A DNA stretch of 64,000 nucleotides, from positions 248,001-312,000 of the forward strand of contig JAKADC010000001.1 in assembly GCA_021820845.1 (NCBI GenBank), in the 5' to 3' direction. Of the stretch, positions 9,914 to 24,213 are shown piece by piece (the stretch's first letter is position 1; each line of letters opens with the position of its first letter). Source of the DNA: Pseudomonadota bacterium. GTDB lineage: Bacteria > Pseudomonadota > Gammaproteobacteria > Burkholderiales > Thiobacillaceae. The notes under the pieces were generated by a model, which made no database searches, had not been told where the DNA came from, and saw nothing but the letters and a program-made list of their open reading frames with translations. The position numbers were made by a program, and so were the translations under genes.

Positions 9914-10708
9914 ATGCTCGAATTCCACCATCGCAGAAGCGGATTGAAACGCCCCCGGATGCGTGACCGCGGCATCTACCTGCTGCCCAACCTGTTCACC
10001 ACCGGCGCACTGTTCGCCGGGTTCTACGCGGTGGTGCAGGCGATGAACGGGCGCTTCGAGCACGCGGCCGTCGCGATTTTCATCGCGATGGTGCTCGACG
10101 GACTCGACGGGCGCGTTGCCCGCATGACCCACACGCAAAGCGCCTTCGGTGCCGAATACGACAGCCTGTCCGACATGGTGTCGTTCGGCGTCGCCCCCGC
10201 GCTGGTGATCTACGAGTTCGCCCTGCAGGGCATGGGCAAGTTCGGATGGATCGCCGCCTTCGTCTATTGCGCAGGCGCAGCGCTGCGGCTGGCGCGCTTC
10301 AATACCCAGATCGACACCGTCACCGACAAGCGCTTTTTCCAGGGGCTGCCCAGCCCCTCGGCAGCGGCTCTGGTGGCGGGCTTCGTCTGGGTGATGGTCG
10401 AATACCGCGTCGACGGACACGACGTGCGCTGGCTCGCTGCGGTGATCGCGCTGTTCGGCGGGCTCACGATGGTCAGCAACCTGCGCTATTACAGCGGCAA
10501 GGAAATCAACCTCAGAAGAAGCGTGCCGTTCTTCGTCATCCTGTTGATCGTGCTGGCGTTCATCCTGGTGTCCACGAGTCCCCCCGAAGTGCTGTTCGTC
10601 GTGTTCCTGCTCTACGGCCTGTCGGGATATGCCGATATCGCGCTGCGGCGAATCCGCCACAGAAAGGCCTCGGAAGCGGCAGACCCCTTGCAGGGCGGCG
10701 AAAATTAG
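9914..10708 (+). CDS. pssA: CDP-diacylglycerol-serine O-phosphatidyltransferase
   Basis: A 264-residue integral membrane protein of the CDP-alcohol phosphatidyltransferase family. The signature D-G-x2-A-R-x8-G-x3-D-x3-D is seen in DGLDGRVARMTHTQSAFGAE followed by YDSLSD (about 57-85). Roughly seven to eight hydrophobic segments follow. It makes phosphatidylserine from CDP-diacylglycerol and serine, feeding Psd. The start at 9914 gives a basic N-terminus; the ATG at 9962 is an alternative. It lies 63 bp after psd. Confidence 0.95.
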   Translation: MLEFHHRRSGLKRPRMRDRGIYLLPNLFTTGALFAGFYAVVQAMNGRFEHAAVAIFIAMVLDGLDGRVARMTHTQSAFGAEYDSLSDMVSFGVAPALVIYEFALQGMGKFGWIAAFVYCAGAALRLARFNTQIDTVTDKRFFQGLPSPSAAALVAGFVWVMVEYRVDGHDVRWLAAVIALFGGLTMVSNLRYYSGKEINLRRSVPFFVILLIVLAFILVSTSPPEVLFVVFLLYGLSGYADIALRRIRHRKASEAADPLQGGEN

Positions 10709-10721
10709 ATAGAATTTTCGC
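10698..10721 (+). repeat. Perfect 9-bp inverted repeat at the pssA end
   Basis: GCGAAAATT (10698-10706) and AATTTTCGC (10713-10721) flank AGATAG. It covers the pssA stop and ends one base before the ATG of the candidate leucine leader peptide. It could be a weak terminator or fold over the leader start. Confidence 0.6.
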
Positions 10722-10722
10722 C

Positions 10723-10812
10723 ATGTCGAACCAGTCGCATCCGTCCTATCTCCTCTGCCTGTCGAACGTCCTGTTCGGCAGCCTGCTGCTGCGCGTCGCG
10801 CGCACATACTGA
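10723..10812 (+). CDS. Candidate leucine-rich leader peptide upstream of leuA
   Basis: A 29-codon frame, with seven leucines including a run of three CTG codons (SLLLR). It begins [18 protein letters not shown]. It lies in the 207 bp between pssA and leuA. Leucine-rich leaders that stall ribosomes and control a downstream leu gene are well known in gammaproteobacteria. Against the call: no Shine-Dalgarno sequence is visible before its ATG, and no classic terminator with a T run follows. A TATAAT (10865-10870) also suggests a leuA promoter downstream of it. Confidence 0.3.
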
Positions 10813-10864
10813 ACCCCCTTCCCCCGCAGTACCCCGCGCCGCCAGCTTCTCGCGGCAACCCCTT

Positions 10865-10898
10865 TATAATGCGTCGGCCCGAAACGCTATCGGCCCGA
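10865..10898 (+). promoter_or_regulatory. Candidate leuA -10 box and adjacent direct repeat
   Basis: A perfect TATAAT lies at 10865-10870, 46 bp before the leuA start, without a clear -35. Immediately after it, TCGGCCCGA occurs twice (10874-10882 and 10890-10898), 16 bp apart, a possible operator or RNA element. Confidence 0.4.
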
Positions 10899-10915
10899 CT
10901 GCCATGGAGCCTGCC

Positions 10916-12451
10916 ATGAACGACCGTTTGTTTATTTTCGACACCACCTTGCGCGACGGCGAGCAAAGCCCGGGCGCGTCGATGACCCGGGACGAGAAAG
11001 TCCGCATCGCGCGCCAGCTGGAAAAGCTCGGCGTCGACGTGATCGAGGCGGGGTTCGCCGCCGCCAGCCCGGGCGACGCCGAGGCGATCCGCGCGATCGC
11101 CGAAACGATCCAGAATTCGACCGTGTGTTCGCTGGCGCGCGCCAACGAACGCGACATCCACGCGGCGGGCGGCGCCATCAAGCCGGCCAAGTCGGGGCGC
11201 ATCCACACCTTCATCGCCACCAGCCCGATCCACATGGAGAAGAAGCTGCGCATGCAGCCCGACCAGGTCGTCGAGGCCGCCGTCAAGGCGGTCAAGCTGG
11301 CGCGCGAATACACCGACGACGTCGAGTTCTCGGCCGAGGACGCCGTGCGTTCCGACATGGATTTTCTCGTCCGCATCTTCGACGAGGTGATCGCCGCGGG
11401 CGCGACGACCATCAACGTGCCCGATACCGTCGGCTACAGCATCCCCGCCCTGTGGGGCGAGCGCATCAGGCAGCTCATCGAGCGCGTGCGGGGCGCGGAC
11501 AAGGTCGTCTGGTCGACGCACTGCCACAACGACCTCGGCATGGCCGTGGCCAATTCGCTCGCCGCCGTGATGAACGGCGCACGTCAGGTCGAGTGCACGA
11601 TCAACGGCCTCGGCGAGCGCGCCGGCAACGCGTCGCTGGAAGAGATCGTGATGGCGGTGCGCACCCGCAAGGACGTTTTCCACTGCGATACGCGCATCGA
11701 CGCGACCCAGATCGTGCCGGCGTCCAAGCTCGTCTCGACCATCACCGGCTACCCGGTGCAGCCGAACAAGGCCATCGTCGGCGCCAACGCCTTCGCGCAC
11801 GAATCCGGCATCCACCAGGACGGGGTCCTGAAGCACCGCGAGACCTACGAGATCATGCGGGCCGAGGATGTGGGCTGGAACGCCAACCGACTGACGCTCG
11901 GCAAGCTGTCGGGCCGCGCCGCGTTCAAGAACAAGCTCGCCGAGCTGGGCATCGTTCTGGAGACCGAGGAGGCGCTCAACACCGCATTCGCCCGCTTCAA
12001 GGATCTCGCCGACAAGAAGCGCGAGATCTTCGACGAGGACCTGCAGGCGCTGGTTTCCGACGAGGGCTACGCCGCCGGGCACGAGCGCTTCAAGCTGGTG
12101 TCGATGAAAGTGTGTTCCGAGACCGGCGAGACGCCGCACGCCAGGATGGTGTTCACCGACGACGGCGTCGAGAAGCGGGCCGAAGGCGACGGCTCGGGAC
12201 CGGTCGACGCGACCTTCAAGGCGCTCGAATCGGTGGTCGACAGCGGCGCGACCCTGCTGCTCTATTCGGTCAACAACATCACCAGCGGCACCGACGCGCA
12301 GGGCGAGGTGACCGTGCGGCTGGCGCAGGACGGGCGCGTGGTGAACGGGCAGGGCGCCGACACCGATATCGTGGTGGCGTCGGCCAAGGCCTACCTGCAC
12401 GCGCTGAACAAGCTGCACAGCAAGCGCGAGCGCGCGCATCCTCAGGTATGA
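10916..12451 (+). CDS. leuA: 2-isopropylmalate synthase
   Basis: A 511-residue enzyme that condenses acetyl-CoA with 2-oxoisovalerate, the committed step of leucine synthesis. The start is taken as the ATG at 10916 ([20 protein letters not shown]), since GGAG lies seven bases before it; an in-frame ATG at 10904 has no ribosome site. The TIM-barrel shows [12 protein letters not shown], the metal histidines in [14 protein letters not shown] and the NGLGERAGN loop. A linker and the C-terminal LeuA allosteric domain, which binds leucine, follow from about residue 385. It is separated from leuCDB by about 37 kb here. Confidence 0.97.
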
Positions 12452-18971: not shown

Positions 18972-19069
18972 GCCGCTTCTCGCTGGAGTTCGTACCAATG
19001 GATGGCGCTGACATGAGCGCGTGTCCGTTGGCCGGGGGTTGCCCGGCGGCGAGTGACTTTCTTTGTCTC

Positions 19070-19115
19070 GCCGCTGTTTTAATGGGAGTACATGCCAAGG
19101 CATGTACTCCAAAGT
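19070..19115. repeat. Perfect 12-bp palindrome between nrdA and nrdB
   Basis: GGAGTACATGCC and GGCATGTACTCC (near 19084-19109) are separated by AA. It is framed by CTTTCTTTGTCTCGCC on the left and AAAGTAACCAAAAGAAGGCG on the right. I recall the CTTTCTTT...AAAGTAACCAAAAGAA frame from dispersed non-coding repeats in beta- and gammaproteobacteria. Confidence 0.7.
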
Positions 19116-19133
19116 AACCAAAAGAAGGCGACC

Positions 19134-19264
19134 CCGCTGCGCCACCCCTGCGGGGCGAGCCTCGACTGAACCGATCCGCCGGGGCGGCTGCGCAACTCGC
19201 CCTGCGGGCTCAGACAGTGCTCGCCGAATTCCCCCGCCGGCTCGGTTCAGTCGAGGTGGCGCAG
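19134..19264. repeat. Long inverted-repeat element between nrdA and nrdB
   Basis: Arms 19160-19184 and 19232-19256 are inverted copies over 25 bp with two mismatches; the outer 15 bp (CCTCGACTGAACCGA) are exact. The match extends outward as TGCGCCACC on the left and its complement on the right, but the left arm carries about 14 extra bases between. The layout suggests a REP/MITE-like repeat. No transposase is encoded. Together with the neighbouring palindrome it fills most of the 389-bp gap 18972-19360. Confidence 0.75.
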
Positions 19265-19360
19265 AAGGGGAGCTCTAGAGGAACGAGGCGGGCAGTGCCC
19301 GCCGCATGAATAAGTAGTGTGGGCCCAGCCCACTTTGGTGTAACCAAAGGAGAAAAAACG

Positions 19361-20488
19361 ATGCTGAATTTTGAAGAAGATTTCACGCCCGCCCCGCAAC
19401 TCGCGCCGCGCATGCCCGAGCCTGCCTATGCGCCGGCCGCCGCTGCGGCCGCCGCCCAGCCGGCCGCGACGACCCGTGTGCGCGCCGCCGACAAGCGCGT
19501 CATCAACGGCGCCACCGACGTGAACCAGCTCGTTCCCTTCAAGTACAAGTGGGCGTGGGAGAAATACCTCGCCGGCTGCGCCAACCACTGGATGCCGCAG
19601 GAAGTGAACATGAGCCGCGACATCGCGCAGTGGAAGGACCCCACCGCGCTGACCGAAGACGAGCGCCGCATCGTCAAGCGCAACCTCGGTTTCTTCGTGA
19701 CGGCCGACTCGCTGGCCGCCAACAACATCGTGCTCGGTACCTACCGCCACATCACCGCGCCCGAGTGCCGTCAGTACCTGCTGCGGCAGGCCTTCGAGGA
19801 GGCGATCCACACCCACGCCTACCAGTACATCGTCGAAAGCCTGGGCCTCGACGAATCGGAAATCTTCAACGCCTATCACGAGATCGAGAGCATCCGCGAC
19901 AAGGACGATTTCCTGATCCCCTTCATCGACACGCTCACCAACCCCGAATTCAAGACCGGCACGCCGGAGAACGACCAGGCCCTGCTGAAGTCGCTGATCG
20001 TCTTCGCCTGCATCATGGAAGGCATCTTCTTCTACGTCGGCTTCGTGCAGATCCTCGCGCTGGGCCGCCAGAACAAGATGACCGGCGCCGCCGAGCAGTA
20101 CCAGTACATCCTGCGCGACGAGTCCATGCACTGCAACTTCGGCATCGACCTCATTAACACCATCAAGCAGGAAAACCCGCACCTCTGGACCAGCGAGTTC
20201 AAGACCGAGATCCGCACCCTGATCCAGAAGGGCGTCGAGCTCGAATTCCGCTATGCCGAGGACACCATGCCGCGCGGCGTGCTGGGCCTCAACTCTGCGC
20301 AGTTCAAGGAATACCTGCGCTTCATCGCCAACCGCCGCTGCCAGCAGATCGGCCTGGACGAGCTCTTCCCCGGCGTCACCAACCCTTTCCCCTGGATGGC
20401 CGAGATGATCGACCTGAAGAAGGAGAAGAACTTCTTCGAGACGCGCGTCACGGAGTATCAGACAGGCGGGGCGTTGAGCTGGGATTGA
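19361..20488 (+). CDS. nrdB: Ribonucleoside-diphosphate reductase class Ia, beta subunit
   Basis: A 375-residue di-iron protein starting at the ATG at 19361 after AAAGGAG. The iron ligands and radical tyrosine are in [15 protein letters not shown] (E-x2-H then Y four residues on, as in E. coli E115-H118-Y122). The second ligand pair is in [13 protein letters not shown]. An alanine-rich N-terminal extension (about residues 14-36) precedes the core, common in betaproteobacteria. The length fits class Ia. It supplies the tyrosyl radical to NrdA. Expression probably depends on read-through across the repeat region, or on a promoter within it. Confidence 0.96.
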
Positions 20489-20548
20489 GCGCAACACCAT
20501 GCATTTGATTTGTAAATCTTCGTCCCCGGGTTCGGGTAACTGCAGGCC

Positions 20549-21646
20549 ATGAAAATAATCTCTGTATTCAACAACAAAGGTGGGGTTGGCAAAACGACGC
20601 TAACTTTTCATCTTGCCCATGCGCTTGCAGAACTCGGGCATAAGGTTCTGATGATTGATGCGGATCCACAATGCAACCTGACAATCTATGCTGCTGACGC
20701 GGAAACGATTGCTGAGATTTGGGCCCCGGAGGATTTGATTATCGATGAGGGAATCGAGATTGCATTGCAAGGCAAGAACAAGAATTCTCTCAAAAAGCTG
20801 TTAGGTGAGATTCGCAGCGTGCACTTTCTGTTGAAACCAACAGAGGAGGGCACTGGGGAGTTTGATACGATTTCGCCGCCCCTGAATCTGGGCAAAAATC
20901 TCGATCTGATTCCTGGTCGCCTATCGCTTCATGCCTACGAAGAAAAAATTGCTTCCCGTTGGGCGGATGCATATCGCGGTGATCCCCTTGCCATTCGAAC
21001 ACTAACGCGAATGCGCACTCTTGCCGAAGAGTACGCTGATGCCTATGGGTACGAGTATGTGATCGTCGATACGTCGCCGAGCCTTGGGGCTCTGAATAAG
21101 GTGATTATTTCAACTGTTGATGGATTCTTTGTCCCGGCCTCGCCGGACCTATTTTCTCTTTACGGAATTCGAAATATTGGCAAGTCACTTACGAAATGGA
21201 AGGCTGACTTTGACACCCTATATAAGCTGATTTCTTCTGATAAGCGCAAACAATTCCCTCCTCGTTTTGTTACTTTTCTCGGCTATACGATTTATAACGC
21301 CAAGAAATATACGACAGGCTATAAGTGGAACCTAGCCCAAGCGCACCTCAGCTTTGCGGAGAAAATTCCCGCGGCAATTACAAAGTACATCCCGGCGGAG
21401 CTACGTAGTCACATTACGGAGAGTGAGTTGCAGGATCCCATCGGAGGTACGTCTGTAATGCATACGCACAATACGTTCCCTGCTCTCGCGCAGCACTACC
21501 ATGCCCCGATGTGGATGGTGCCGAGGCTAGCGCTAGATCCCGAGCATCAGAATACTGTCCTCGGGGCTTCACAGCGCTTCAAAGATACAAAAGGGGCCTA
21601 TAAGAGCTTCGCCACTGATCTCTTGAAACGGCTAAAAAAAGTCTGA
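20549..21646 (+). CDS. ParA/MinD-like ATPase, first gene of an accessory pair
   Basis: A 365-residue protein. The deviant Walker A FNNKGGVGKTTLTFHLAHAL (lysines at 10 and 15), the switch I region MIDADPQCN (D37-D39) and the Walker B VIVDTSPSLGALNK (about 172-185) are all intact. A family-specific region (about 190-330) contains FLGYTIYNAKKYTTGYKWN and lacks similarity I recognise. Typical partitioning ParA proteins are shorter and sit beside parB; here no parB or parS is visible. Instead the next gene, three bases downstream, is an alarmone synthetase. Base composition is lower in GC than the flanking genes (two 60-base lines counted here and in the next gene gave 52% and 38%), which points to horizontal transfer. 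No transposase or attachment repeat was found at the borders. Confidence 0.85.
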   Translation: MKIISVFNNKGGVGKTTLTFHLAHALAELGHKVLMIDADPQCNLTIYAADAETIAEIWAPEDLIIDEGIEIALQGKNKNSLKKLLGEIRSVHFLLKPTEEGTGEFDTISPPLNLGKNLDLIPGRLSLHAYEEKIASRWADAYRGDPLAIRTLTRMRTLAEEYADAYGYEYVIVDTSPSLGALNKVIISTVDGFFVPASPDLFSLYGIRNIGKSLTKWKADFDTLYKLISSDKRKQFPPRFVTFLGYTIYNAKKYTTGYKWNLAQAHLSFAEKIPAAITKYIPAELRSHITESELQDPIGGTSVMHTHNTFPALAQHYHAPMWMVPRLALDPEHQNTVLGASQRFKDTKGAYKSFATDLLKRLKKV

Positions 21647-21649
21647 CCC

Positions 21650-22312
21650 ATGGCGACCAAGAGAGAGTTGTCCCAACTTGTTAAGTTGTATCGTGACCAC
21701 ACGCATCTCTTTCAGTATTTTCAGGAAGGCGTCATAAGCGCTCTACGTCTGGACCCAAAACTCAATACGGACCCTCTGCCAATAATTCACTCTATCAAGA
21801 CTCGGCTTAAAGACCCGGATCACTTGGCAGATAAAATAAAGCGGAAAGAAGCAGAAGGGCGGTTAATAACTAAAGACAATCTTTTTAACGAGATTACTGA
21901 CCTCGCGGGTGTTCGGATACTGCACCTCCACCAAGCGCAAGCAAAGCCGATCCACGATTTCATAATGGAAAAGGTTAATGGACACGAATGGTATCTCGCC
22001 GAAAAACCGGTTGCCTATTCGTGGGATCCAGATTCTACGGATTTCTTTAAAGCGCTTGGTTTGAAAGTAAAACTAAAACCATCGCACTATACGAGTATTC
22101 ACTATGTGATTAGGCCCAAGAAAGGGGCACAAGCAGCCTGCGAAATCCAGGTGAGAACGCTCTTCGAGGAAATATGGGGTGAGATCGATCACTCGGTAAA
22201 TTATCCAACGGCCACAAACAATCCTGCGACAAAAGAGCAGCTTCGGGTCTTGTCGAAACTCGTATCTACCGGAACGCGATTGGTCGATTCGATATTTAAG
22301 CTACATGGTTAG
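21650..22312 (+). CDS. Single-domain RelA/SpoT alarmone synthetase, second gene of the pair
   Basis: A 220-residue protein with only the synthetase domain: no HD hydrolase, TGS or ACT domain. Visible motifs are IHSIKTRLKDPDHLADKIKRK (nucleotide-binding K50, R52, K64-K66 region), ITDLAGVRIL (D84, G87, R89), SHYTSIHYVI (Y147, S149, H151, replacing the usual GYRSLH) and CEIQVRTLFEEIWGEIDHS (E165, Q167, R169, W176, H181). All residues expected for pyrophosphate transfer seem present. Such small synthetases make (p)ppGpp, or in toxSAS proteins (p)ppApp or tRNA pyrophosphorylation. The tight pairing with the ParA-like gene suggests one functional unit, perhaps toxin-antitoxin or phage defence; that is inference. 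Confidence 0.85.
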   Translation: MATKRELSQLVKLYRDHTHLFQYFQEGVISALRLDPKLNTDPLPIIHSIKTRLKDPDHLADKIKRKEAEGRLITKDNLFNEITDLAGVRILHLHQAQAKPIHDFIMEKVNGHEWYLAEKPVAYSWDPDSTDFFKALGLKVKLKPSHYTSIHYVIRPKKGAQAACEIQVRTLFEEIWGEIDHSVNYPTATNNPATKEQLRVLSKLVSTGTRLVDSIFKLHG

Positions 22313-22443
22313 AGTAGACGGTCGCGCACGCAACGACATCGCAGTAACGCACATTCCCAAATTAGAGGATACGCGGCCAGATCTTGAGAATAAATGTGGT
22401 CAGACGCCATGGTCACGCGATGGTTAGCAACCGTGAAAATGAC

Positions 22444-23096
22444 ATGCATGCAGATCTGAACGAACGCGTGGCGGTGGCGACGCAAACGGCGCCCTGGCTC
22501 GCGACGGCGGACGGTGAGGGCGCCTGCAAGCCGCTCGACAGCCTGGCGGGCGGTGCGGGCACCACCAGCCTGGTGCAGGCGCCGGCGGGTGCGGTGTTCG
22601 CGCCGCCTGGTAGTGCGCTGGGCGAGGAAATTCTCGTGCTCGATGGCACGCTGACGGATGCGCGCGGCGTGTGGGGGGGGCGGGAGCTTTCCTGCGCAAT
22701 CCGCCGGGGTCGGAGGTCTCCCTTCATAGTGAAACGGGGTGCGTGCTGTTCATCAAGCGTTTCGCGTTCGACGCCGAAGATACGGCGGCGGTGCGGCTGA
22801 ATACGGCGTCCATGCGATGGCTGCCCGGCCTGGTGCCGGGGCTGTCGGTGATGCCCTTGCACGAGCATGCAGGCGAGCATACCGCGCTGGTGCGCTGGCA
22901 GCCGGAGACGTTCTTCCAGAGCCACGCGCATTTCGGCGGCGAGGAAATCCTGGTGCTCGATGGCGTGTTCGAGGACGAGTTCGGCCGCTATCCGGCCGGC
23001 AGCTGGCTGCGCAGCCCGCACATGAGCAGGCACCAGCCGTTCAGCCGCGAGGGGTGCACGATCTTCGTCAAGGTCGGCCACCTCGGGGCAGGGTGA
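22444..23096 (+). pseudogene. Frameshifted double-cupin (ChrR-like) protein
   Basis: Two overlapping frames encode the halves of one protein. The first (from the ATG at 22444, MHADLNERVAVATQTAPWL) holds GEEILVLDGTLTDARGVW. The second, one frame over, continues AGAFLRNPPGSE and then a second cupin with FFQSHAHFGGEEILVLDGVF and AGSWLRSPH. The break is at a run of eight G residues (22673-22680): adding one G restores a single bicupin of about 218 residues. Each half repeats GEEILVLDG and a conserved SWLR/AFLR stretch, as in ChrR-type cupin proteins. It may be a true pseudogene, a phase-variable tract or a sequencing error. Confidence 0.75.
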
Positions 23097-23136
23097 CGAA
23101 GCGTCCCATCGGGGTCAGGTGTTCCCTGTTGTCGCC

Positions 23137-24213
23137 CTATTTTTTCCCCGCAGGCTCGTCGCCCATGCGCCAGATATCGACGTCCTGGCCCCGCTCGCGC
23201 AGGCGTTCCGACTTGGCGGACAGGTAGCGCTGGAAGCTCGGCTCTGTTTTATAAGCACCGCTCAGCACGTAGGTCAAAATGCCCTGGGTGTGGAACAGCT
23301 TGAAATAGGCTTCGGAGCGGATGATCTCCTTGCCCTTTGCGTCGAACAGCACGATGGAGGGCGCATATTTGATGTCCAGCGCCCTGGCCCATGCGCGCGC
23401 CGTGGTGGCTTTGCCCTGCGGGGTGGTCAGCGGCGTGTCCGACCACATGTCGAGCTGGATCGCATCGAACCCGGCGATGATGCTGCGCGTCTGCTTGTCC
23501 GACAGGATCCGGCGGTGCAATTCGGCGCAGGCGGGGCAATCGCGTTGCTCGAAGAACACCGCAATCGGCCTGGTCTTGCCGCCCTTGCGCACAAGATTGA
23601 AGGGCGGCTTCCTGAAGAAGGGTTCACCGATCATGTCGCCGCCCGTGGCAGGCGGCCGGTGCGCTGCGAGGTAATCGAGGTAGTCGGATTCCTTCCTGCC
23701 TCGTGCCGCGAACTGCAGCGCAGTCATGAACCGGGCGGGCGGGATGTAGCCATTGAGCCGCAATACGGTTTTCCCGGCTTCGTCGAAGAACAGGATGGTG
23801 GGGGTGAATTGCACCTTGAGGCCGGCGGCAAACTGCTTCTCGGGCATGGACCGGTTGTCGAGCCCCACGACCTCGCGGTCGCCCCACATGTTGATGGCGA
23901 TCACGTCGAAGTGTTTCCGCAGGTAGGTTTCGATGTCCTTTTGCGAAAGATTGCGCTCGACCAAAGCATGGCAGTAAGGGCAGCCGTCCTGCGTGAACAG
24001 GAGCATCACGCGCTTGTTTCTGGATTTGGCTTCCGCAATGTCTTCCCGCAGGTTGAGGAAGCTCGACTTGAACCAGCTCGGGTATTCGGTCTGGACCGCG
24101 CCACGGAACGCGCCTTCTTTCCTTTCCGCTGCGTGGGCCAGGGAGGTAAACAGGAGCAGGATGCATGCGAACCATTTCAGGAAATGGGGGCCGTGCGTCG
24201 AACGTGGATTCAT
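23137..24213 (-). CDS. Exported protein with two thioredoxin-like domains
   Basis: A 358-residue protein with an N-terminal signal peptide (hydrophobic core FACILLLFTSLAHA, cleavage near 29). Two thioredoxin-fold repeats follow, one with CPYC (78-81) in LLFTQDGCPYCHALVERNL and one with CPAC (226-229) in VFFEQRDCPACAELHRRIL. Each is followed by a strand with a cis-proline-like TPT or APS (QFTPTILFF, KYAPSIVLF). Single-domain relatives include SoxW and DsbD-type thioredoxins. It is probably a periplasmic thiol reductant, possibly for sulfur-oxidation or cytochrome maturation proteins; the partner is unknown. It stands alone on the minus strand. Confidence 0.82.
   Translation of the reverse strand: MNPRSTHGPHFLKWFACILLLFTSLAHAAERKEGAFRGAVQTEYPSWFKSSFLNLREDIAEAKSRNKRVMLLFTQDGCPYCHALVERNLSQKDIETYLRKHFDVIAINMWGDREVVGLDNRSMPEKQFAAGLKVQFTPTILFFDEAGKTVLRLNGYIPPARFMTALQFAARGRKESDYLDYLAAHRPPATGGDMIGEPFFRKPPFNLVRKGGKTRPIAVFFEQRDCPACAELHRRILSDKQTRSIIAGFDAIQLDMWSDTPLTTPQGKATTARAWARALDIKYAPSIVLFDAKGKEIIRSEAYFKLFHTQGILTYVLSGAYKTEPSFQRYLSAKSERLRERGQDVDIWRMGDEPAGKK

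Follow-up and report, generated by a model that had tools for sequence, protein, structure and literature searches.

ParA-like ATPase genes pair with interchangeable partners, an alarmone synthetase among them, suggesting a modular family of immune or toxin-antitoxin systems

What does a ParA-like ATPase do when its gene directly precedes that of an enzyme of alarmone synthesis? The question is raised by two genes within a 64-kb stretch of a Thiobacillaceae genome (contig JAKADC010000001.1; hereafter the window, meaning the whole stretch), in which a ParA/Soj-like ATPase gene is followed after 3 nt by the gene of a single-domain alarmone synthetase (SAS). As a preliminary description of the window had noted, the pair is poor in G+C (47.5% versus 65.8% in the rest of the window); in 50-bp steps across the 64 kb, the 1764-bp stretches with the lowest G+C content are those on the pair (0.476 versus a mean of 0.653, standard deviation 0.035). 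That description took the two genes for a candidate new defense or toxin-antitoxin system, an interpretation that is partly supported by the analysis reported here. We find that ParA and SAS are conserved as a pair and co-diverge, and, as our main new point, that the same ParA family pairs with swappable effectors of the SAS, SIR2 and HEPN types, the latter two belonging to enzyme classes with known cell-poisoning members. This exchange of effectors, like the genomic sites at nrdB and at P2-type portal genes, lay beyond what the window sequence could show, and it points to a modular family, so far little noticed, of immune or toxin-antitoxin systems in bacteria.

That the two genes belong together, as the preliminary description supposed, is borne out across genomes. 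We scanned species genomes with a ParA profile and kept the best 80 of 576 loci. Among the matches listed, identity is at least 44% for the 30 closest ParA relatives and drops to 35% for the one after them, and an SAS gene lies directly downstream in 23 of these 30; two of the others (Thiomargarita and Thioploca) are followed by a gene that is HEPN-like by motif only, and five have no partner, one of them with a shortened ParA frame. In viral contigs, SAS stands beside 12 of 14 close ParA relatives, the remaining two being cut by contig ends, and ParA lies upstream of all 22 SAS with identity of at least 42% (a contig end cuts one of them, and some are near-copies of each other). Among the 27 weaker viral matches (E 7e-10 or worse), which include two short ones at 37-38% identity, none has ParA upstream. 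Samples of 369 class and 398 phylum genomes, which overlap in some genomes, hold seven strong SAS matches (E<1e-74) including the window's own, all with ParA or pieces of it, and three at E 1.3e-39 to 1.1e-36, which are longer proteins without ParA. Nine distant SAS matches come from plasmids, and ParA was found with the closest only, in Caballeronia (three of the nine examined). Weak SAS matches also occur in genomes G003 and G042. A 12-kb Vibrio virus record (L020) contains at 10573-11600 an SAS-like stretch with a broken frame, of a different SAS type, and no ParA was found there.

A 1.7-Mb plasmid and many viral contigs carry the close pair, whose hosts include, by label, Pseudomonadota, Bacteroidota, Bacillota, Campylobacterota, Elusimicrobiota and one metagenome-assembled genome labelled Euryarchaeota. 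ParA and its partner overlap by at most 8 nt or leave a gap of at most 14 nt in 30 of 35 SAS pairs and in 26 of 33 SIR2 pairs, the larger overlaps arising from the choice of the first start codon. Distances among the ParA proteins follow those among their SAS partners (r=0.758 over 34 pairs), a correlation as high as this being reached in none of 5000 permutations.

Does the ATPase always come with a synthetase? We defined the wider family as the 170 loci whose ParA scores at least 95 bits, and scored partners shorter than 100 aa as none. A downstream open reading frame (ORF) of at least 100 aa is present at 118 of these loci, and these partners cluster as SAS (40), SIR2 (33), RiboL-PSP HEPN (8), a 222-227-aa protein (3) and a HEPN-like protein of Thiotrichaceae (2), with 32 others; the SAS, SIR2 and HEPN counts include near-copies, and the SAS cluster counts the window twice (L001, L009). 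The SIR2 cluster matches Pfam SIR2_2 in the one member scanned, at L014, which also matches the PADLOC models ThsA (1.2e-19) and LmuA (3.9e-17). The three HEPN partners scanned match HEPN_RiboL-PSP, and the R...H pair of this cluster, which we take to be the HEPN motif, is invariant. This presumed motif is what gives the Thiotrichaceae partners (L041, L044) their label, there being no Pfam match for L041 and no PDB match of note. The 222-227-aa partner (L098, 7062-7730; L147, 6062-6733; L151, 1617-2300) has the pattern DxLGF...QFSDS...CRGG and may be cyclase-like; L098 matches no Pfam family above the cut-off, and the alignment finds nothing in the PDB. Two Panacea genes were considered as partners and left uncounted, one at L002, which overlaps the next gene and may form its own Panacea-toxin pair, and one at L158, which lies 203 nt away.

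The type of partner tracks the ParA clades. In a tree built by a quick method from 94 chosen ParA rows (30 of 33 SIR2, 7 of 8 HEPN and 12 chosen lone rows, with near-copies and unclear or partnerless loci mostly left out), 11 changes suffice for eight partner labels, versus a mean of 48.2 after shuffling. The SIR2 (support 100), HEPN (93) and 222-227-aa (100) types each fall on one side of a branch, while the SAS types form two main groups, with the Thiotrichaceae type nested in the larger one (fork support 82 with the SAS rows nearest to it).

Several observations extend the picture of the family. A second SAS-ParA group (L067, L073, L184, L185) has a third gene upstream, encoding 183-255 aa; similar genes lie at L269 (8467-9048), L270 (5842-6447), L067 (5417-5968) and L073 (5197-5964), and share a TDVER..CLA..LTH stretch with no Pfam match in the two copies scanned. 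Two phage proteins resemble the wider ParA family, Orf317 of Pf1 (L296, 3073-4026) and the 'ParA-like partition protein' of the P22-like phages ST160/SE1 (L297, 3019-4092); they are 25-29% identical to a SIR2-type ParA and have no annotated same-strand gene directly downstream. Pseudomonas phage WX-TY (L298, 2676-4308) encodes a ParA and a partner like the HEPN cluster, with an 8-nt overlap between the two genes. In Helicobacter cetorum, the lone ParA (L046, 7214-8988) adjoins an opposite-strand pair of an AAA ATPase and an OLD-like TOPRIM protein.

We then asked what the ATPase itself reveals. The window's ParA matches Pfam AAA_31 (E=4.9e-30), and its deviant Walker motifs are intact, as had been read from the sequence: K10, K15, D37, D39 and D174 are invariant in 65 rows. 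Its long middle region had been called unrecognised. AlphaFold2 predicts this region to be folded and mostly helical, in a model with a predicted local distance difference test (pLDDT) score of 96.2 and a predicted template modelling (pTM) score of 0.93, where 345 of 365 residues have a pLDDT of at least 90. The closest solved relative by sequence, PDB entry 3pg5 (E 1.5e-25), aligns to residues 1-322, and Foldseek with the model places 3pg5 at ranks 1-4, followed by Soj/ParA structures. This entry, which is DIP2308 of Corynebacterium diphtheriae from structural genomics and a relative in both sequence and fold, is itself uncharacterised.

The reported lack of parB and parS was confirmed. No parB stands beside the pair, the genome's sole ParB_N match being on another contig (C3) within 1 kb of a Soj-like ParA match, and parS in the window is not beyond chance (two matches at three mismatches to an assumed consensus versus 0.9 expected, none near the pair). 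A ParABS partition system, considered for the ParA fold and the deviant Walker ATPase, was set aside for want of parB and parS beside the pair. It is likewise highly improbable that ParA segregates or positions something while the SAS acts as an ordinary, starvation-controlled (p)ppGpp synthase: the ParA fold and the proximity of the SAS to RelP/RelQ would fit such a housekeeping role, against which stand the failure to find parB or parS nearby, the confinement of strong SAS matches to seven genomes in the two partly overlapping samples of 369 and 398, the two long RelA/SpoT homologue (RSH) genes that the host genome already has elsewhere, and the pairing of the same ParA family with SIR2 and HEPN.

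The synthetase was described as single-domain with all catalytic residues in place, and so we find it. RelA_SpoT is the only Pfam domain (E=3.6e-18), and R52, K54, D84, R89, Y147, T148, S149, H151, E165, Q167 and H181 are invariant across 34 ParA-linked SAS, R52-x-K54 being presumably an active-site element, as in RSH enzymes. Because the catalytic residues are invariant in these 34 sequences, ParA-linked SAS appear to have been kept as active enzymes. The preliminary description had singled out SHYTSIH in place of the usual GYRSLH; the variant is there, and is no oddity of this gene, Y-T-S-x-H being invariant in the family. When compared with solved structures, a profile of the SAS family finds the RelP/YwaC/RelQ enzymes at E 2.4e-15 to 4.8e-11.

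Where the pairs reside offers a further clue. In the window's genus, the interval between nrdB and a cupin-type gene is a variable site: other cargo occupies it in genomes G024 and G011, and in G035 it holds a related ParA, a Panacea protein, a 265-aa protein, an Eco57I-type methylase and a BsuBI/PstI restriction enzyme. We found nrdB in 26 of 40 genus genomes; in the 22 of these 26 where its end was read, it is followed by widely differing sequence. For eight of the 22 viral SAS contigs, the fetched stretch includes a P2-type portal gene, which adjoins the pair in some (L103, L105, L230) and lies up to about 2 kb off in others; such a gene also lies near the SIR2 loci L137/L138 and L175 and the HEPN locus L149. 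A study of P2-like phages describes the interval between gpA and gpQ (the portal gene) as a hotspot of anti-phage systems, several of which block phages once cloned (PMC9122126); our placement of pairs at this hotspot is judged from the portal (gpQ) side only. The same study reports a 'putative plasmid partitioning system' at the hotspot in about a quarter of E. coli P2-like phages (PMC9122126). In E. coli genomes, we found no nucleotide match to the SAS-type pair L103 or the SIR2-type pair L131. With PADLOC at 1e-10, 141 families were matched among 125 neighbor ORFs at 23 chosen loci (some of them HEPN-type or second-group SAS), versus 23 among 118 ORFs at 20 arbitrary places in other genomes.

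These locations bear on whether the pair could be a pure toxin-antitoxin module for addiction or maintenance of mobile elements, without an anti-phage role. We think this unlikely: it would suit the carriage of the pair by a 1.7-Mb plasmid and by many viral contigs, and ParA/Soj-HEPN was predicted as a toxin-antitoxin system in 2013 (PMC3710099), whereas it sits less well with the variable sites, at one of which a restriction system is also found, and with pairs adjoining or close to the portal end of the P2 gpA-gpQ hotspot (PMC9122126).

On balance, we lean towards a mobile two-gene growth-arrest module in which ParA is the switch or sensor that directly controls the SAS effector, with restraint as the default; its toxicity and its role in defense we infer. 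This proposal builds on the conserved pairing, the intact active-site motifs, the co-divergence of ParA and SAS, the swapping of effectors and the residence in variable sites. The ParA-type ATPase would bind ATP as a P-loop dimer and act directly on the SAS made from the overlapping or abutting downstream gene, keeping it off in the resting state. The trigger would most likely be caused by an invading phage or rival element, whose DNA or whose effect on nucleotide pools would alter the nucleotide- or DNA-bound state of ParA. Once released, the SAS would pyrophosphorylate GDP/GTP (or ATP, or tRNA), and growth would stop before the invader spreads. The sister effectors would work to the same end, SIR2 through an expected depletion of NAD+ and HEPN through an expected cleavage of RNA.

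ParA genes can evidently stand alone, and no close SAS relative was seen that lacked ParA sequence; both observations speak, tentatively, for restraint over activation. With the opposite default, the SAS would be idle alone and would work only when ATP- or DNA-bound ParA binds it, with the same outcome. We regard such activation as rather doubtful, though it deserves serious weight: it would explain broken ParA beside intact SAS at L012 and L273 (sequence errors being possible) and would equally predict the missing solitary SAS, useless on its own, whereas lone ParA persists in the same clade (5 of the 30 listed), as expected of leftover antitoxins, and the precedent of type II toxin-antitoxin systems is one of restraint. 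The likelihoods of these accounts overlap, activation and addiction sharing much with the restrained growth-arrest module.

Several findings weigh against that module as drawn here. At L012 and L273 the broken ParA frame stands beside an SAS whose catalytic residues are intact, which, unless these are sequence errors, argues against an SAS that is lethal at every loss of ParA. Structure prediction of a fused, read-through ParA-SAS, with seven alignment rows, yielded no confident model of the complex (pLDDT 75.7, pTM 0.60). Two other plasmid SAS and one phage SAS that we examined (L020-L022) all lack ParA. Of the 170 ParA loci that make up the wider family, 52 lack a partner of at least 100 aa, and many of the 32 partners outside the five named clusters are probably unrelated neighbors or false ORFs, so the dyad is not the rule for all ParA members. 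The SAS stands closer to RelP/RelQ than to CapRel, whose chains are matched only at E 0.47-0.49, and its descent from toxic SAS (toxSAS) is therefore unproven; up to E 10, the structure library, whose content of FaRel2 chains was unchecked, returned no other toxSAS chain, a negative that does not extend to enzymes of the FaRel type. Of the earlier proposal of a toxSAS in a mobile pair, the single domain and the mobile elements are supported and the toxSAS label is weakened. Finally, the enrichment of defense genes around the pairs is only suggestive, because redundant type I restriction models inflate the figure of 141 and the taxa are unmatched.

At its own locus, the pair lies downstream of nrdB and upstream of a gene that we take, from reading its sequence, to be of cupin type (Table 1). 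Among five relatives compared, two (G004 and G015) have no cupin counterpart within the fetched stretch. In the window, the cupin-type gene is split over two overlapping frames (22384-22800 and 22671-23096) and the G024 copy is one frame of 231 aa; the split reflects either a broken gene or a sequence error. By eye, a hairpin with a T-run directly follows nrdB in 11 of 22 genus sequences. None was seen between nrdB and the pair, so transcriptional read-through from nrdB is possible. A search of 20300-22600 returned no sigma-70-like site, where chance alone predicts 1.9, and Rfam at gathering scores returned no RNA element in 19000-24000. Candidate insertion repeats amounted to two short two-copy direct repeats and one palindrome, which we attribute to chance.

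Table 1. Features of the ParA-SAS locus, in window coordinates
Feature	Position	Strand	Basis or remark
nrdB, left border of the variable site	19361..20488	+	start taken as the ATG inside the ORF at 19319
Short gap between nrdB and ParA	20489..20548	.	no hairpin with T-run seen
ParA/Soj-like deviant Walker ATPase, 365 aa; proposed switch/sensor and SAS regulator	20549..21646	+	AAA_31, AlphaFold2, Foldseek
Deviant Walker A KGGVGKTT, residues 10-17	20576..20599	+	K10, G11, G12, V13, K15 invariant in 65 rows
DADPQCN motif, residues 37-43	20657..20677	+	D37, D39, Q41, N43 invariant in 65 rows
Walker B region DTSPSLGALN, residues 174-183	21068..21097	+	D174, P177 invariant; L179, G180, N183 at least 90% (65 rows)
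Small alarmone synthetase, single RelA_SpoT domain, 220 aa; proposed growth-arrest effector	21650..22312	+	Pfam, 34-member alignment
R52-x-K54, presumed synthetase active site	21803..21811	+	invariant in 34-member SAS alignment
D84...R89 (DLAGVR)	21899..21916	+	D84, R89 invariant in 34-member SAS alignment
YTSIH, residues 147-151, family form of the GYxSxH motif	22088..22102	+	Y, T, S, H invariant in 34 sequences
E165-x-Q167	22142..22150	+	invariant in 34-member SAS alignment
Cupin-type gene, right border of the variable site	22384..23102	+	counterpart right of the cargo in G024, G011, G035

What would follow if the proposal extends beyond this locus? Tentatively, and as a possibility we take seriously without yet counting on it, many 'orphan' ParA-like proteins of phages, prophages and genomes could, instead of serving partition, be the shared sensor or switch of a modular immune family and control effectors that replace one another (SAS, SIR2 NADase, HEPN RNase in one or perhaps two kinds, and other partners). 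Evolution would have turned the DNA- and ATP-state cycle of a partition ATPase to the sensing of invading DNA or of a collapse of nucleotide pools, and the SAS arm would be a nucleotide-pool weapon not derived from CapRel-type toxSAS. Genes labelled 'ParA-like partition protein' in phages and prophages are easily taken for maintenance genes, which would then be partly wrong, and a single ATPase family would unite (p)ppGpp chemistry, NAD+ depletion and RNA cleavage under one control principle. The pair offers a direct test of how an SAS might be silenced and released by a P-loop ATPase.

How does the pair compare with known systems? The preliminary description knew of no ParA-type ATPase as such a partner, and on this point it was mistaken: Anantharaman et al. 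proposed in 2013 a toxin-antitoxin dyad of a HEPN protein (MAE_18760 family) and a ParA/Soj ATPase, the latter postulated to be the antitoxin, perhaps by a nucleotide-dependent conformational change (PMC3710099). ParA-SAS is therefore a variant of a known principle and not a new kind. In both, the gene of a ParA/Soj ATPase immediately precedes that of a putative toxin, with the two conserved as a unit, and they differ in the effector, a HEPN RNase there, RelA_SpoT in the window and SIR2 elsewhere in the family. Of the two HEPN clusters described here, one matches the Pfam RiboL-PSP HEPN and the other no Pfam model. In the literature searched, mostly titles and abstract openings with partial coverage, we found no description of a ParA-SAS or ParA-SIR2 pairing.

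Among the anti-phage systems catalogued in PADLOC 2023 the pair has no counterpart: the models recognise neither ParA (best match 27 bits, limited to residues 4-39) nor SAS (best E 0.0014), and the ParA of sister loci has no full-length model. With the SIR2-effector systems (ThsA, Lamassu LmuA, DSR, Avs5), the family shares the logic of a sensor joined to an NADase, the L014 partner matching ThsA and LmuA; it differs in having a ParA-type ATPase, which no full-length PADLOC 2023 model covers, as the partner.

Closer to the SAS itself, RelP and RelQ (YwaC, YjbM) are the nearest solved sequences, but the SAS family described here is closely linked to ParA, and RelP/RelQ are not known to have a ParA partner. 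To toxSAS (FaRel/FaRel2, PhRel2-PanA, CapRel) the likeness is one of a small single-domain synthetase with intact catalytic residues in a mobile two-gene unit. Here, in contrast, the partner is a ParA, not Panacea/PAD1, ATfaRel2 or a hydrolase, the known antitoxin types. Sensing by CapRel is reported to involve FtsZ (PMC13423816), a different arrangement, which by analogy hints that cytoskeletal-type NTPases can join SAS-based immunity.

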